Source: Eubacterium sp. (GTDB lineage: Bacteria; Bacillota; Clostridia; Lachnospirales; Lachnospiraceae). Taken from it: a stretch of DNA of 36,035 nt. Numbering within the stretch: the first letter of the stretch is position 1; each line of letters begins with the position of its first letter. Below, in pieces: positions 8,007 to 14,629 of this stretch. The stretch lies in the NCBI GenBank assembly GCA_022794015.1, contig JAAWDZ010000050.1, positions 1-36,035 of the forward strand, in the 5' to 3' direction. The position numbers and the translations under genes are program-made. The notes beneath the pieces are model-generated. The model did no database searches. It was given only the letters and a program-made list of their open reading frames with translations, and was not told where the DNA came from.

Positions 8007-8035
8007 TTGCCTGTAAAAGCCAGATGTAGTATAAT
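8007..8035 (+). promoter_or_regulatory. predicted promoter of the STM4015-4011-type operon
   Basis: TTGCCT, a 17-base spacer and a perfect TATAAT lie 67 bases before the first gene of the cluster. The region TGTAGTATAATAG is nearly shared with the promoter at 31713-31741 (GTAGTATAATAG). Confidence 0.72.
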
Positions 8036-8101: not shown

Positions 8102-8977
8102 ATGGGAGCTGAAGCTACAGTAAAATCGAAGAAATATGCTTACGATTATGACCAGTACAAAGACGGCGAAAAGGGACCGGGCACGTTGATAGAGGATATT
8201 TTAGCGGACCCCGAATTTTTGGGACTGACGGAGATTGTCATTGGCGACTGGGGAAACACGTGGGAAGAAAGCTGCCAGAGTATTCTGGATGTGATTGCAG
8301 AACAGTCAGATCGTTTTTCCCATATTGAAAGCTTATTTATCGGAGACATGGGCTATGAGGAATGCGAAGTGTCCTGGATTAAGCAGGGAGATTACAGCAG
8401 GCTGTGGGAGGCTATGCCGCAATTAAAGGAGCTGACGATTAAAGGCAGTACGGATCTGAATCTGGGGCAGATTTGCCATAACGGCCTGGAGTCTTTGACC
8501 ATTATCTGCGGCGGTTTACCGGTATCTGTTATCCGTCAGATACAGGAGGCGAAACTGCCGAATCTGAAAAAGCTGCTGCTCTATATAGGAGTGGAATACT
8601 ATGGATTTGACGGAACTGCAGACACCATAAAAGAGCTGCTTGCAAATGCAGATTTTCCACGTCTTACTTATCTGGGGATTACAGACAGCGAAATGCAGGA
8701 CGAGCTGGCACAGATCGTTTTGGAAAGTAAATATATGGAGCAGATCGATACACTGGATTTGTCAAACGGCATATTGACAGACAAAGGCGGTGCGCTTCTT
8801 CTGGAAAAACTGTCTTCGTATCCGAATATCAAAAAACTGGATGTTCATTACAATTACCTGTCGCAGCAGATGGCCGATGATTTGGAGAAGCTTCCGTTCG
8901 ATATTGATGTTTCGGAACGCGAAGGGGCGGAAGTATATGATGGCGAAATCTATATGAGTGCCATGCTGACCGAGTGA
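8102..8977 (+). CDS. STM4015-family leucine-rich-repeat-like protein
   Basis: This soluble 291-residue protein has no signal peptide or membrane segment. The C-terminal two thirds show irregular leucine-rich repeats (LPNLKKLLLYIGVEYYG, FPRLTYLGITDSEM, MEQIDTLDLSNGILTDKGG, YPNIKKLDVHYNYLS), and the first third has the IEDILADPEFLGLTEIVIGDWG region of the STM4015 family. It is the first gene of a five-gene set in Salmonella STM4015-STM4011 order, which supports the assignment. Such a repeat protein probably binds another protein or a substrate peptide; that is inference. GGAGGTGTTTTGA precedes the ATG. Its stop overlaps the GTG start of the next gene. Confidence 0.82.
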   Translation: MGAEATVKSKKYAYDYDQYKDGEKGPGTLIEDILADPEFLGLTEIVIGDWGNTWEESCQSILDVIAEQSDRFSHIESLFIGDMGYEECEVSWIKQGDYSRLWEAMPQLKELTIKGSTDLNLGQICHNGLESLTIICGGLPVSVIRQIQEAKLPNLKKLLLYIGVEYYGFDGTADTIKELLANADFPRLTYLGITDSEMQDELAQIVLESKYMEQIDTLDLSNGILTDKGGALLLEKLSSYPNIKKLDVHYNYLSQQMADDLEKLPFDIDVSEREGAEVYDGEIYMSAMLTE

Positions 8978-10005
8978 GGCAGGAAGTTCTCCTGGGCGTT
9001 TCGGATACCAGGCGTACACAGTATTTTATGCAGGCGGCAAAGCAGGCCGGCCTGGCTCCTCTCTTCTGGGAATGGGGGAACTGGCAGGAAAAGATAAAGG
9101 AATCTGCGCAGACGGGGATAGTGATGAAAATCGATCCGCCCCGCTGGAATAGCTGTGATCTAATAGAGTTGGACAGTCTGGTGAGAGATTACAAAAAACA
9201 GCTGGATGAACTGGCTTATGCGGCAGACAAATATGATATACAGTTCTGGAACCATCCGTCGGCAATAGAAGCGCTGCTGGATAAGGCAAAATGCAAAGAA
9301 ACTCTGCGAAGCCTGAGGCTTCCCGTGACGGAGCCTGTAACGGAAAATGCTGTGCAGGATACGGGACAGCTTCTGGAAGCTATGCAGAGCCGGGGCGTTT
9401 ACCAGGTTTTTATAAAACCGGTAAACGGTTCCGGCGCAGCGGGTGTGTCTGCGTTTCGGTGGCAGAAGGGAAGCGGGCGGATGGCTTTGTATACCTGTAC
9501 TTTACATCAGCCGGGAAAGGGCCTTGTGAATACGAAACGGCTGCGGTATTTTTCGGATTCGTCGCAGATAATTTCTTTTTTGGATCGGCTTCTTGAGATG
9601 GAATGTGTCATAGAACGCTGGTATGCAAAGGATGAATATCAGGGATATTCCTATGATATGAGAGCAGTGGTACAGGATGGCAGAATGGATTATCTGCTTG
9701 CCAGGCTTTCTAAGGGGCCGATTACCAATCTGCAGTTAAATAACCGGCCTCTGGATATGGAATCACTGGGACTCTCCTCTGCCGTGCTGGATGAAATGGA
9801 AGAGGTATGTCTAAAAGCCATGGAGCCGTTTCCCGGCCTACTCGGTGCAGGGATTGATATTTTGCTGGAAAAAGGCAGCCGAAAGCCCAGAATCATTGAA
9901 ATGAACGGACAGGGCGATTTGATTTACCATGATATTTTCCATAAAAACAAGATATATCGGCGTCAGGCAGAGTTTATGAAACGGATGGGAGAGAAATATG
10001 AATGA
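8974..10005 (+). CDS. STM4014-family ATP-grasp enzyme
   Basis: This 343-residue ATP-grasp-fold protein is expected to activate a carboxylate with ATP and join it to an amine or thiol. Visible features are a Rossmann-like N-terminus (EVLLGVSDTRRTQYFMQAAKQ), the linker FWNHPSAIEALLDKAKCKETL, the nucleotide-binding strand VFIKPVNGSGAAGVSAF with its lysine, and the metal-binding end RIIEMNGQGDL. It starts at GTG 8974, inside the stop of the previous gene (GTGA), with no strong ribosome site, so it probably depends on coupling. The end overlaps the next start by 8 bases. The substrate is unknown; peptide ligation, tagging or small-molecule amide formation are all possible. Confidence 0.83.
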   Translation: MRQEVLLGVSDTRRTQYFMQAAKQAGLAPLFWEWGNWQEKIKESAQTGIVMKIDPPRWNSCDLIELDSLVRDYKKQLDELAYAADKYDIQFWNHPSAIEALLDKAKCKETLRSLRLPVTEPVTENAVQDTGQLLEAMQSRGVYQVFIKPVNGSGAAGVSAFRWQKGSGRMALYTCTLHQPGKGLVNTKRLRYFSDSSQIISFLDRLLEMECVIERWYAKDEYQGYSYDMRAVVQDGRMDYLLARLSKGPITNLQLNNRPLDMESLGLSSAVLDEMEEVCLKAMEPFPGLLGAGIDILLEKGSRKPRIIEMNGQGDLIYHDIFHKNKIYRRQAEFMKRMGEKYE

Positions 10006-10840
10006 TTACAGAGCCAGGGAACCGGAAAAGGCAGCACAACATGTGGATATGACACAGGTTGTGGGGAATTTTGACATACTGATGATTTGCCTGGATACCC
10101 TGCGTTATGATGCGGCAGTCCGGGAAGAAGCGGCAGAAACGACCCCGGTGTTAAATCAATACGGGCCATGGCAGAAATGCCAGGCGCCGGGGAATTTCAC
10201 CTGGCCGTCCCATCATGCTATGTTTGCAGGGTTTCTGCCTCTGCGGTACGATGCGAAGAAAATGGCAGACAGAGAGCGTTTGTTCTGCTCATCTGAGACC
10301 AGGTCCGGGAAAAAAACACCGGAAGGAGCCTATATGTTTTCCGGAGGCACGATTATGGAGGGGCTTGCAAAGGATGGCTATGAAACATGGTGCATAGGAG
10401 GCGTTTCGTTTTTTGATAAACGATCCGATCTGGGAAAGGTGTTTCCCGGATATTTTCAGAAAAGCTACTGGAATCCGTCTTTTAGCTGTCCTGTGAAGGA
10501 AAGTACGAAAAATCAGGTGGATTTTATACAAAATAAGATAATAAGCAGTAAAACGGACAAAAGGATTTTTCTTTATCTGAATGTGGATGCGATCCATTAT
10601 CCCAATTATTTTTATTTGGAGGGAGCTTCCCATGACTGTCTGGAAAGCCATGCGGCAGCGCTTCGGTATGTGGACAGAGAACTGGGAAGGCTGTTTGCAG
10701 AATGGAAAGAGCAGAGAGGAAGCGCATTTGTGATTTGCTGCTCGGATCATGGGACCTGTTATGGGGAGGATGGATGTTACTCGCATGGGATTGATCATCC
10801 TGTTGTAAATACGGTACCTTATAAGCACTTTTTTCTGTAG
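9998..10840 (+). CDS. STM4013/SEN3800-family alkaline phosphatase superfamily hydrolase
   Basis: This 280-residue cytosolic (no signal peptide) member of the sulfatase/alkaline phosphatase superfamily shows the metal-site motifs: ILMICLDTLRYD with D33, FTWPSHHAMFAG with T68 where sulfatases have Cys, SDHG with D250 and H251, and H263 or H267 in YSHGIDH. A threonine nucleophile is like lipoteichoic acid synthase and phosphodiesterases rather than arylsulfatases, so I expect phospho-transfer or phosphoester cleavage. It is complete, ending VPYKHFFL. It overlaps the ATP-grasp gene. A large hairpin begins at its stop codon and separates it from the radical SAM pair. Confidence 0.83.
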   Translation: MNDYRAREPEKAAQHVDMTQVVGNFDILMICLDTLRYDAAVREEAAETTPVLNQYGPWQKCQAPGNFTWPSHHAMFAGFLPLRYDAKKMADRERLFCSSETRSGKKTPEGAYMFSGGTIMEGLAKDGYETWCIGGVSFFDKRSDLGKVFPGYFQKSYWNPSFSCPVKESTKNQVDFIQNKIISSKTDKRIFLYLNVDAIHYPNYFYLEGASHDCLESHAAALRYVDRELGRLFAEWKEQRGSAFVICCSDHGTCYGEDGCYSHGIDHPVVNTVPYKHFFL

Positions 10841-10904
10841 AGTGTTTGAAAATCGCTTCTTGCCAGATGTATAACCTGCTTAGTGGTATTTTCAAACACA
10901 CTCT
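10839..10904 (+). repeat. long hairpin between STM4013- and STM4012-type genes
   Basis: AGAGTGTTTGAAAAT (10839-10853) pairs with ATTTTCAAACACACTCT (10888-10904), with a 2-base bulge and a 34-base loop. There is no T tract, so it is not a classic terminator. It overlaps the stop codon of the hydrolase and ends just before the next ribosome site GGGAGG, so it could tune expression or mRNA processing between the two halves of the operon, or be a mobile repeat. Confidence 0.7.
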
Positions 10905-10919
10905 GGGAGGGAATGATAT

Positions 10920-12293
10920 ATGAACCCTTATATTCAGTACATGTACAGTTATCCGCATAAAACCGCATACCGACCGTTAAAAGGTGTCTTTTTGAAAGAT
11001 TACGCCCATCTGCTGTCCGGCGGCGGCCATGGGCTGTATTTGCATATTCCGTTTTGTCAGGCAAAATGCGGATATTGCAATCTCTTTTCGGTGACCGGAC
11101 AGGGGGAAGAAGAGATGGGACGTTATCTGGATGCCGTAGAACGTCAGGGCAGGCAGTATGGCAGCATTTTATCAGATTATGATTCCTGTTTTTCGGAAGT
11201 GTCGGTTGGCGGAGGGACGCCGCTGCTTTTGTCGGAAGGACAGTTAGAGCGTATGCTTGGTATTCTGGAAACGTATTTTTCCTGCAGTGAGGACAGAACG
11301 TTGCTGATCGAAACGGCGCCGAATCAGACATGCAGAAAGAAACTGCAGATTTTAAAGCAGTTTGGTGTAACGAGGGTCAGTATGGGGGTGCAAAGCTTCC
11401 GGGAACAGGAGCTTATTGCGCTTGGCAGGCAGCATCATGCCAGGCAGGCAAGAGAGGCGCTTGCACTTTTGAAGGAATTTGATTTTCCCTGTGTGAATGT
11501 GGATTTTATTTACGGGATTTTAGAGCAGACAGTGCAGAGTCTTTTGAGTTCTTTGAAAGAGGCGCTCTGTTTTGAGCCGGACGAAATTTTTTTGTATCCT
11601 CTGTATCTAAAGCATGGGGCATGGCTAACGAGGAAGAAGGAGGAGCAAAAGATGCCGGATCCGGCTTTTGTTTACGGGCAGTATCGGGAAGCTTCGGCTT
11701 TTTTGAGAGACGCAGGCTACAGACAGGATTCCATGCGCAGGTTTGTAAAAAGAAAAAGTACCGTAAACGGACAGAATGGATCGGAATTGCAGAGAGGGGA
11801 AGAACGGCGTTTTTCGGAGTGCGGATTTGGAACTTCACTTGCTTTGGGGTGCGGGGGCAGGAGTTATCTGGGAAACCTTCATTTTTGTACGCCATATGCT
11901 GTTACGGGGCCAGAGTGCCTTCGCCAGCTAAAGCAGTTTGAGGAAATGGAGGATTATTCACAGATTACGCACGGCGTGCTGCTTTCGCAGGAAGAGATGA
12001 AACGCCGGTATGTGATACGTCATCTGTTTATTCGCCCAGGTCTTGCCCTCAGGCAGTATCAGGCACATTTTGGCACGGATGCAAGAAAAGATTTTCGGCT
12101 GCTTTGGGATTGGACCAAAGAGGGGTATGTCCGGATGGCCGGCACAGAAAAAGAGGAGTATCTGGCTTTGACAGAGAAGGGGCTCGGCCTGTCGGATTAC
12201 CTGGGACCTATGTTAATTTCCGGGCAGATATATGGGAAAATGAAGGAGTGGGAGGATATTTATGATGGGAAGGATGATATTATACAGGGGTAG
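10920..12293 (+). CDS. STM4012-family radical SAM protein (HemN/HemW-like)
   Basis: This 457-residue radical SAM enzyme has the cluster motif CQAKCGYC (C46, C50, C53) in LYLHIPFCQAKCGYCNLF, then VSVGGGTPLLL, NQTCRKKLQILKQFGVTRVSMGVQSF and VNVDFIYGI, all HemN/HemW-class features. The C-terminal part (about 355-450: MKRRYVIRHLFIRPGLALRQ, LTEKGLGLSDYLGPMLIS) resembles the HemN winged helix. It is longer than HemW and sits among STM401x relatives, so a heme role is not implied. GGGAGG lies nine bases before the ATG. It overlaps the next gene by 32 bases. Substrate unknown. Confidence 0.85.
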   Translation: MNPYIQYMYSYPHKTAYRPLKGVFLKDYAHLLSGGGHGLYLHIPFCQAKCGYCNLFSVTGQGEEEMGRYLDAVERQGRQYGSILSDYDSCFSEVSVGGGTPLLLSEGQLERMLGILETYFSCSEDRTLLIETAPNQTCRKKLQILKQFGVTRVSMGVQSFREQELIALGRQHHARQAREALALLKEFDFPCVNVDFIYGILEQTVQSLLSSLKEALCFEPDEIFLYPLYLKHGAWLTRKKEEQKMPDPAFVYGQYREASAFLRDAGYRQDSMRRFVKRKSTVNGQNGSELQRGEERRFSECGFGTSLALGCGGRSYLGNLHFCTPYAVTGPECLRQLKQFEEMEDYSQITHGVLLSQEEMKRRYVIRHLFIRPGLALRQYQAHFGTDARKDFRLLWDWTKEGYVRMAGTEKEEYLALTEKGLGLSDYLGPMLISGQIYGKMKEWEDIYDGKDDIIQG

Positions 12294-13692
12294 TTTAAAG
12301 AGCTGCAATTACCGCTGTTCTTATTGTCCTTTTTCCAAACACCCGATGGAAGAGGGGGAGCTTGAAACAGACAGGGAGCAATGGGAGTCTTTTGTGCAGG
12401 ATTTTGCAAAATGGGAGGATCGTTTCCATGTGCGGGCGCTGATGGTGATTCCGTATGGAGAAGCGCTGATTCATCCGTGGTACTGGGAAGGTCTGGCACG
12501 TATCAGTACATACTCCAAAACAGATGCCGCAGGGGCGCAGACGAATCTGAGCTTTCCTGTACAGGAGTCATTGACGCGTTTTGATGCGTGCGGAGGAAAG
12601 CGCGAAAAACTGCGTCTTTGGGCGACTTTTCATCCGCAGATGACGACAGTGGAAGAATTTGCAGGAAGATGCAAAAGACTTGCGGATGCAGGCATTACCT
12701 TATGTGCGGGAGCGGTAGGTGTGCCGGAGCATATCGGACTGATACAAAAATTAAGGGAAAAGCTGCCGAAGGATATTTATCTGTGGATCAATCGTATGGA
12801 TGGGATGAAACGGCCATATACCAGAGAAGAACAGGCTGCTTTTTTGGAGATTGATCCGTATTTTTTGCGTGAGCTTGCACCGGTCTTTGCAGATCCGAAG
12901 AAATGCAGGGAGAGGATTTTGGTGGAAGGCAGCGCAGGGATAGGTATCTGTAATATCTGTTTTCCAAAACGGCAATGCGAGCGCAGGATTTGTTCCTGTT
13001 ATCTGGCGTATGGCGGACGCGACGATTTTATGAATCAGATTTTGTTCGGTCCTTATTCCCTGTTTCGGATTCCGCGCCGCCCGAAAGCTGTCTTTTTTGA
13101 TATCAATGGGACGCTTTTGCCAAAAAACAGGAAGGAAGGTATTCCGAAAGAGATTTGGGCAGGCCTAATGGCGTTGTTTCTGGAAAAAATACCGCTGTTT
13201 TTTGCCACTGCTCTTCCGTATCAGGATGCGAAAAAGCAGTGTAGTCAGATATGGCATATGTTTTTGGGCGGAGTTTTTGCAGGAGGGGCGCACCTTGTTT
13301 TCGGAAAAGAAGACAGGGAGGAATTTTATTATCTGAAAGAATCTCTTATAGAAGAGCTTACGCGTCTTAAGCAGGAGTTTCATTTCCGGATACTGACGTA
13401 TCGAAACCAGGGCCGGATTTATAAAATTACACTTTGCCGTCCGTTGCACAGTCCGTGGAGCAGAAAGGAAATACAGGCGGCCATAGAAGCTGTTCCAGAG
13501 ATACAAAGCGGAATAGCGCGGTATTTTATAGAAGAAAGCTGTCTGCAAATTGTTTCTGCAAAAGCGGATAAAGCAGAAGGGGTGCGTAAAATCTGCAGCT
13601 GGATGGGGATTTCGCCAAAAGAAGCTGCTGCTGCCGGAGATTCTGCACAGGATGCTAAAATGCTGGAAATTTGCGCAGGCGGTATGGAATAA
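12262..13692 (+). CDS. STM4011-family radical SAM protein fused to a HAD-like domain
   Basis: Residues 1 to about 265 are a radical SAM domain with CNYRCSYC (C15, C19, C22). A second cysteine cluster follows, C230, C233, C239, C244, C246 (CNIC, RQCERRICSC), which may hold an auxiliary iron-sulfur cluster as in SPASM-like enzymes. From about 270 a Cof-type HAD domain begins: AVFFDINGTLL (D280, with N282 in place of the second Asp), then SAKADKAEG with the motif III lysine, and GDSAQDAKML (459-468). It ends abruptly at ICAGGME, before the usual GVAMGNA end of the family, six bases from the convergent lysR stop. The changed DxN and short tail suggest altered or lost phosphatase activity. Confidence 0.82.
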   Translation: MMGRMILYRGSLKSCNYRCSYCPFSKHPMEEGELETDREQWESFVQDFAKWEDRFHVRALMVIPYGEALIHPWYWEGLARISTYSKTDAAGAQTNLSFPVQESLTRFDACGGKREKLRLWATFHPQMTTVEEFAGRCKRLADAGITLCAGAVGVPEHIGLIQKLREKLPKDIYLWINRMDGMKRPYTREEQAAFLEIDPYFLRELAPVFADPKKCRERILVEGSAGIGICNICFPKRQCERRICSCYLAYGGRDDFMNQILFGPYSLFRIPRRPKAVFFDINGTLLPKNRKEGIPKEIWAGLMALFLEKIPLFFATALPYQDAKKQCSQIWHMFLGGVFAGGAHLVFGKEDREEFYYLKESLIEELTRLKQEFHFRILTYRNQGRIYKITLCRPLHSPWSRKEIQAAIEAVPEIQSGIARYFIEESCLQIVSAKADKAEGVRKICSWMGISPKEAAAAGDSAQDAKMLEICAGGME

Positions 13693-13697
13693 AACAG

Positions 13698-14579
13698 CTA
13701 TTCTTCTATCAGATGCACCATATCTGCAAAATCCTGCATCTGTGGCGTCACAGGATGGCACTGGTTATAACACAGGTAAAAATAACGCTTCATAGATACA
13801 TTTTCCAGGGGGCAGACAATCACGTCACCGGTTTCGACATAGTCGGTCACGCATCGCTCGGAGAGCACGCCAAGCCCCAGGTTGTGCCGGACGGCGTCTA
13901 TAATGGCGCAGCGGCTGCTGCATTCCCATTTTGTTACAAATGGGATGTGGTGGGTGAGCATAATATTTTCAAAAATAGCTCTGGTACCGCTGCCTTTTTC
14001 CCGCATTATAAAATCCTGATGCCGCAGATCTTCCATAGTCACGGAAGGTTTGCATGCAAACGGATGCTTTCTGCCGCAGATCAGGCAGAGAGAATCCTCT
14101 AAAACAGGTTCGGTTAAAATTTCCTGGCGGACAATAATTCCTTCTACCAGGGCAATATCCAGTTCGTTATGCATCATTCGATGTTCAAGAATCTTTGTAT
14201 TATCTACAAATACCGTCACGTCTATATCCGGAAATTTTTGGATGAGCTTTTCTACCAGAGATCCCATTAATGTATTGCCAATCGTAAGTGTTGCACCGAC
14301 ACGGAGCGGACGAAGCGCGTTGATATTCTGCATGGCCTGATCCAGATGGTCATGGATGGCGACGATTTCACGCGCATTATTCAAAAGCAGAAGTCCTGCC
14401 GGAGTAATTTTTAATTCTCTGGAAACACGTTCAAAAAGCCGGGCCCTGTATTCCGTCTCCAGATCGGAAATGATCTGGCTGACGGTAGGCTGTGAAATGT
14501 ACAGGCGTCTGGCGGCTTCGCTCATTTTCTTATATTCTGCAACTGCAATAAAGGTTTTCAGCTGTTTTAAAGTAGACAT
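13698..14579 (-). CDS. LysR-family regulator, YeiE/CysL-like
   Basis: This 293-residue regulator has an N-terminal winged HTH (LKQLKTFIAVAEYKKMSEAARRL, ISQPTVSQIISDLE) and a periplasmic-binding-like effector domain. The segment REKGSGTRAIFENIML and AVRHNLGLGVLSERCV resemble E. coli YeiE, whose neighbour yeiH has a homologue here at 17757. I use the ATG at 14579, nine bases after AGGAGG, rather than the longer frame to 14615. It is divergent from the sulfur operon and most likely controls it, sensing sulfite, a sulfur metabolite or a reduced-sulfur intermediate; the ligand is inference. Confidence 0.93.
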   Translation of the reverse strand: MSTLKQLKTFIAVAEYKKMSEAARRLYISQPTVSQIISDLETEYRARLFERVSRELKITPAGLLLLNNAREIVAIHDHLDQAMQNINALRPLRVGATLTIGNTLMGSLVEKLIQKFPDIDVTVFVDNTKILEHRMMHNELDIALVEGIIVRQEILTEPVLEDSLCLICGRKHPFACKPSVTMEDLRHQDFIMREKGSGTRAIFENIMLTHHIPFVTKWECSSRCAIIDAVRHNLGLGVLSERCVTDYVETGDVIVCPLENVSMKRYFYLCYNQCHPVTPQMQDFADMVHLIEE

Positions 14580-14629
14580 AGGAAAAATCCTCCTGGAACA
14601 GATATAAATGAACAAATTAACATAATAAT

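Follow-up and report, generated by a model that had tools for sequence, protein, structure and literature searches.

A conserved STM4015–STM4011 gene cluster in Eubacterium sp. with a nearly invariant C-terminal glutamate in its leucine-rich repeat protein, a candidate carrier or substrate

A five-gene cluster in Eubacterium sp.

We analyzed a 36,035-nucleotide stretch of DNA from Eubacterium sp. (contig JAAWDZ010000050.1, positions 1 to 36,035; hereafter, the window) that carries, at positions 8102–13692 of the forward strand, five genes assigned to the families STM4015, STM4014, STM4013, STM4012 and STM4011. These families are named in public genomes, including those of Salmonella, and their NCBIfam entries give no function; the system they form is common to gut bacteria, Salmonella and Streptomyces. 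Here, we describe a feature of STM4015, its terminal glutamate, that provides the first testable idea of what the system might do. The cluster and its associated features are as follows, all on the forward strand.

8102..8977, +, STM4015 family protein, a leucine-rich repeat (LRR) protein of the ribonuclease-inhibitor type, proposed carrier or substrate, 291 aa (NCBIfam, predicted structure)
8948..8974, +, codons of the STM4015 C-terminal tail, IYMSAMLTE, last residue Glu291 (tail comparison)
8974..10005, +, STM4014 family protein, ATP-grasp ligase with a predicted fold closest to RimK/ArgX/LysX, 343 aa, GTG start (NCBIfam)
9998..10840, +, STM4013 family hydrolase of the alkaline-phosphatase superfamily, Thr nucleophile, 280 aa (NCBIfam, conserved residues)
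10920..12293, +, STM4012 family radical S-adenosylmethionine (SAM) protein, HemN-like, 457 aa (NCBIfam, motif)
12262..13074, +, STM4011 family radical SAM domain with five further invariant Cys (NCBIfam, motif; whole open reading frame (ORF) 12262–13692, 476 aa)
13084..13692, +, HAD-IIB phosphatase-like domain fused to STM4011, motif I DINGT (domain matches)
8007..8035, +, sigma-70-like promoter match, TTGCCT-17-TATAAT (motif scan)

All five window proteins score over the curated NCBIfam cut-off for the respective family (bits, with the cut-off in brackets: STM4015, 324 (275); STM4014, 313.5 (175); STM4013, 381 (250); STM4012, 483 (380); STM4011, 264 (200)) and are thus members by that measure, with the HAD domain in the window fused to STM4011. 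The gene order is that of the annotated Salmonella enterica record (L032), in agreement with the first-pass annotation of this DNA, made from the sequence alone, which had read the region as a complete cluster in Salmonella order. The genes are tightly packed, with overlaps of 4 nt (STM4015/STM4014), 8 nt (STM4014/STM4013) and 32 nt (STM4012/STM4011), and a 79-nt gap separates STM4013 from STM4012. A promoter at 8007–8035, upstream of the cluster, is plausible from its sequence; the same annotation had considered it strong, but matches of this type are no more common in the region than expected by chance (6, compared with a mean of 8.5 and sd of 2.7 in shuffled sequences). Downstream of the cluster lies a convergent gene for a LysR-type regulator (13698–14615). 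With regard to anti-phage defence, the only match of the cluster to PADLOC models was weak and partial, between STM4012 and PDC-M51A (9.3e-8).

The five families behave as one unit

To place the cluster in a wider context, we used an STM4013 alignment to scan genomes, one for each species, and kept the best 80 of 567 relatives, a selection weighted to relatives of the window. All five genes are present in 68 of these 80 best-match loci, in the same order and on the same strand in 63 of the 68, and with the first and last gene starts within 7 kb in 62. Among the five complete loci that failed the strict order test, three are rearranged (L091, L092, L100), and two (L050, L090) reflect a frame artefact, in that two genes, as read by eye, share one open frame among the stop-to-stop ORFs; in one locus (L054), the order is kept across 11 kb. 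At least one gene is absent from 12 of the 80 loci, six of which are cut by a contig end (L052, L058, L074, L080, L098, L101). The rest comprise STM4013 by itself (L055), two loci with no STM4012 or STM4011 within about 10 kb downstream (L059, L088), one with no STM4011 in the remaining 2 kb (L104), and two in which STM4014 is missing from its usual place (L082, L103).

Genome-wide counts show the same association. Across 121 genomes of one actinobacterial family, a sample centred on a genome already known to hold STM4015 (G087), matches over the cut-off were found for STM4015 in 62 genomes, STM4014 in 59, STM4013 in 68, STM4012 in 59 and STM4011 in 58. All five families occur together in 58 of these genomes, four have STM4015 in an incomplete set (in one of them, G272, STM4011 is present only as sub-cut-off fragments), and seven have an STM4013 relative only. 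In the window's own family, the identical six of 200 genomes (G000, G382, G464, G524, G546, G547) are over the cut-off for STM4015, STM4014 and STM4011. At wider range, the system is patchy: STM4015 was found in 5 of 198 genomes of a phylum-wide sample, likewise built around a genome in which its presence was already known, and of 61 window relatives 5 have STM4013 over the cut-off. The five families are therefore not mostly apart in genomes but behave as one unit and, because they co-occur and their order is kept, one conserved pathway is supported, as had been proposed from gene order at the outset.

Reading by eye the intergenic stretches of seven loci, with no systematic search for short peptide genes, we found no extra gene shared inside the cluster; these stretches look unrelated to each other except in two actinobacterial loci with STM4015 arrays, L191 (10414–12245) and L192 (9439–11307), which have a similar-looking insert between STM4013 and STM4012 consisting, by eye, of a sigma-factor-like gene and a second gene. 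Separately, on a Bacteroides finegoldii plasmid (L030, 9778–11733), an STM4013 fragment and no STM4012 match lie between STM4014 and the STM4011-HAD fusion, and this copy is apparently a decayed cluster.

A nearly invariant terminal glutamate in STM4015

We compared the tails of distinct STM4015 sequences scoring at least 100 bits, leaving out ORFs cut by the end of a locus. Glutamate is the very last residue in 187 of these 188 sequences, and without the score floor it ends 79 of the 81 distinct sequences of one locus set. The exceptions are a distant orphan (L194, 209 bits, ending in Val) and a weaker-scoring orphan (L202, 75 bits, ending in His), both distant from clusters. The penultimate residue is small (Thr in 89 tails, Ser in 39, Ala in 29, Gly in 28; Asp in 2 and Glu in 1), the third from last is Val, Leu or Ile in 180 of 188, and an aromatic residue is common six or eight positions from the end. 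Upstream of this tail, a segment that differs in length between sequences is mostly acidic, and the median net charge of the last 35 residues is -6. Two recurrent styles of ending can be recognized: Bacillota, Bacteroidota and the Salmonella relatives have PMLTE or NAMLTE, and Actinomycetota and Deinococcota have RYVAVGE or RFVALGE.

The 4-nt overlap pattern with STM4014 occurs in 98 of the 188 STM4015 genes, all of them Glu-ended, and so are 89 of the 90 genes that do not have it. Both GAA and GAG encode the terminal residue and all three stops follow it, and the last residues of STM4014, STM4013 and STM4012 vary, including in genes with the same overlap pattern. An artefact of gene overlap was therefore rejected as the origin of the glutamate.

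Glu-ended STM4015 genes also occur outside the clusters. Three loci (L196, L197, L198) hold a Glu-ended STM4015, the residue being preceded by Glu, Asp or Thr, although none of STM4014, STM4012 and STM4011 is over the cut-off in these three genomes. Other loci carry tandem STM4015 genes ahead of a single STM4014, six in L191 and five in L192, every one Glu-ended; mean pairwise identity is 49% among the L191 copies and 50% among the seven copies of the genome that contains L192, and one genome (G288) has eight STM4015 matches, seven of them over the cut-off. Residues kept across the copies include E89, S91 and W92, among others. Several STM4015 copies per STM4014 would make sense if STM4015 is the protein being modified, and the same observation also suits an alternative, considered below, in which STM4015 is the end product.

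Predicted structures point to a repeat protein and a C-terminal glutamate ligase

The predicted structure of STM4015 is a ribonuclease-inhibitor-like LRR fold with a predicted local distance difference test score (pLDDT) of 96.3, and its best match among solved proteins is 2RA8 (TMq 0.89). The alignment of the 2RA8 chain with a Bacteroides STM4015 extends through a shared YPMITE end, which in 2RA8 lies eight residues before the end of the construct. Pfam gave no domain in the window STM4015; the single Bacteroides member that was tested contains a WGR domain.

STM4014 was predicted with a pLDDT of 93.9 and is structurally nearest to RimK (the top VIA row), ArgX and LysX, which are ligases acting on the C-terminal glutamate of a protein; PsnB appears at Foldseek ranks 3, 5 and 7. 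A profile of STM4014 found weak matches only among PDB sequences, the best being a D-Ala-D-Ala ligase (9e-4), with RimK at 0.0037, and because these matches are weak our assignment of the ligase subtype depends on the predicted fold. Charge also separates the proteins: STM4015 is strongly acidic, with a median isoelectric point of 4.39 (n=177), STM4014 (8.64, n=128, range 5.59–10.56) and STM4011 (8.24, n=109) are mostly basic, and STM4013 (6.23, n=135) and STM4012 (6.10, n=124) are not basic.

Given a terminal glutamate that hardly ever varies and an ATP-grasp enzyme similar to C-terminal-Glu ligases, the repeat protein itself is likely to be the substrate or carrier. The first-pass annotation had instead cast it as the recognizer of a separate peptide or small molecule, which is probably wrong or incomplete; its broader outline, ATP-driven ligation plus radical modification, is retained here on the strength of folds and motifs.

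Phosphoesterase-like, radical SAM and HAD components

The motifs that had been read from the window are conserved throughout the families. Seven STM4013 residues are invariant in 128 of 128 sequences (Asp33, Thr68, His200, Asp250, His251, His263 and His267, numbered as in the window), among them the predicted Thr nucleophile, Thr68, which is T54 of the aligned stretch; a pattern of this kind occurs in Thr-nucleophile metal phosphoesterases and transferases. A second STM4013 subfamily occurs in actinobacteria in other neighbourhoods (L211, L218, L219, with similar cases in L119, L033 and L212–L217), where it adjoins a sugar nucleotidyltransferase (L211, L218) or MoaA-like radical SAM, dTMP-kinase-like and NUDIX proteins (L219). 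These neighbourhoods hint at nucleotide or sugar-phosphate substrates.

Both proteins annotated as radical SAM enzymes keep the CxxxCxxC motif, STM4012 in 122 of 122 sequences and STM4011 in 109 of 109. Among solved proteins, STM4012 matches HemN as well as NocN, a radical SAM methyltransferase. In STM4011, five further Cys are kept in the same 109 sequences and likely form a second metal site; their spacing differs from the textbook SPASM motif, and the SPASM family is absent from the domain matches of the window proteins.

The HAD-IIB domain, overlooked in the earlier annotation, begins at about residue 275 of the fifth window protein. It is fused to STM4011 in 50 of the 68 complete best-match loci, and in the Salmonella enterica record a Cof-type HAD-IIB hydrolase is encoded as a separate gene after STM4011; we therefore rejected it as a core part and take it as optional. 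With a two-sequence profile, which is insensitive, no HAD match was obtained in the Paenibacillus loci, nor in the majority of the actinobacterial ones. The second Asp of DxDGT is usual for HAD phosphatases and is replaced in the window copy (DINGT). Several other fused copies have an altered motif I too, and an exact DxDGT was counted in at least 27 of 55 fused copies among the 12 commonest strings (DIDGT 13, DVDGT 10, DLDGT 4), so that the fused domain may be partly degenerate.

Genes adjoining the cluster in relatives

In many Actinomycetota, and also in Deinococcus and Methylobacterium loci, the cluster is adjoined by genes for a DUF6745 protein and for a small protein about 100 residues long (for example, L024, 4168–5632; L025, 10979–12276; L028, 4513–5838). 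The small protein has Asp as its last residue in each of the 37 complete copies among the 40 of 41 rows listed, the other 3 being cut, and the DUF6745 protein ends in YxPxx[EQ][TA] in 18 of 18 complete copies. These neighbours are possibly a second tail-bearing substrate.

Proposed mechanism and alternative explanations

We consider it reasonably probable that STM4015 is a substrate or carrier and that STM4014 ligates an amine onto its terminal glutamate with ATP. In the scheme we propose, STM4014 would use ATP to activate Glu291 of STM4015 and join an amino acid or another amine to it; the HemN-like STM4012 and STM4011, with its extra Cys site, would then alter the attached group, the tail, or both; and STM4013, aided in some lineages by the HAD phosphatase, would remove or transfer a phosphate-type group. 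The data show the five families and their linkage, the nearly invariant terminal glutamate, the predicted ligase fold and the conserved catalytic motifs; we infer the action of STM4014 on the glutamate, the order of the steps and the radical chemistry on the tethered group. More tentatively, the cluster could represent a second, unrelated class of carrier-protein biosynthesis, in which the terminal glutamate of an LRR protein is loaded by a RimK-like ligase and a compound or cofactor is built there by two radical SAM enzymes and a phosphoesterase, in five or more bacterial phyla, with Salmonella, Streptomyces and gut anaerobes among its holders. The structural model of STM4015 weighs slightly against a loaded tail: residues 281–290 have a mean pLDDT of 93 and the last residue 76, and the model has no free arm, so that the tail would need to be reached in place or by opening.

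Alternatively, STM4015 could be the end product, an LRR protein that keeps the group built on its C-terminus as a protein-bound cofactor or reactive tail, with the LRR body giving target specificity. The eight matches in G288, the divergence of the tandem copies to about 50% identity with every one Glu-ended, the Glu-ended copies outside the cluster, and the finding that none of the five cluster proteins matches a peptidase family are all compatible with this explanation. However, the residues that the copies share, E89, S91 and W92 among them, suggest that they dock to the same enzymes, and there is no known partner or target; on balance, we regard STM4015 as end product as somewhat unlikely. 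It is less likely still that the tail is a docking peptide, its glutamate anchoring STM4015 to STM4014 or to a radical SAM enzyme while the chemistry takes place on a separate small molecule, close to what was proposed earlier. The conserved character of the positions before the glutamate, the confidence with which the model holds the tail, and the nucleotide and sugar-phosphate genes beside STM4013 relatives, which make a phosphorylated small molecule plausible, would fit such a role; yet a docking motif seldom needs the exact last-residue placement seen in 187 of 188 tails, and the STM4014 fold suits ligation to a C-terminal glutamate.

Two further explanations carry little weight. STM4014 could be a graspetide-like ligase that crosslinks side chains of the tail, for instance Thr or Ser to Glu, as the PsnB ranks and the 128 of 188 tails with Thr or Ser before the glutamate might suggest, but Gly (28) or Ala (29) takes that position in 57 of 188, and residues adjacent in sequence are poor ring partners, which makes this improbable. 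That the glutamate is simply a by-product of the overlap with STM4014 or of common descent is hardly credible: although just over half of the STM4015 genes have the overlap pattern, the remainder end in Glu nearly without exception and with varied codons and stops, the last residue differs widely among other cluster genes that share this overlap, and paralogues at about 50% identity keep the glutamate. We therefore favor STM4015 as substrate or carrier; if this is correct, a folded repeat protein would join the few known protein carriers on which molecules are built, with radical chemistry on a tethered substrate, pointing to an undiscovered metabolite or protein modification.

Comparison with known carrier and ligase systems

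The closest parallel is provided by the amino-group carrier protein (AmCP) systems, LysW with LysX/ArgX, and Vzb22. Like these, the STM401x system combines a Glu-ended protein with an ATP-grasp ligase that, by its predicted structure, belongs to the closest fold branch, and in both the carrier is acidic, the ligase is mostly basic, and further enzymes are encoded alongside. The differences are substantial: the putative carrier is an LRR protein of about 290 residues rather than the small LysW, and the lysine AmCP pathway uses a kinase, a reductase and an aminotransferase, whereas the STM401x system has radical SAM and phosphatase-type enzymes. None of the five cluster proteins has a peptidase family match that would correspond to the product-freeing hydrolase of AmCP pathways. 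The definition of AmCP followed here is that of PMC9303977.

The RimK/RpsF system has a different target, S6 rather than STM4015, and to our knowledge no radical SAM enzymes. RimK is an ATP-dependent ligase working on the C-terminus of ribosomal protein S6 (RpsF), as stated in PMC7343187. The pearlins (PEARL), described in PMC9303977, likewise involve construction on a carrier of ribosomal origin, and one of their pathways includes a radical SAM enzyme. The carriers of pearlins are peptides and their ligases are peptide aminoacyl-tRNA ligases, whereas the STM401x system has a folded LRR protein and a ligase of the ATP-grasp type.

In the parts of the open literature that we searched, the STM401x names appeared only as table lines, and searches combining carrier protein, LRR, ATP-grasp and radical SAM returned no paper proposing a carrier loaded at its terminal glutamate. 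Our proposal borrows a principle known from LysW and RimK and applies it to another kind of carrier and another chemistry.

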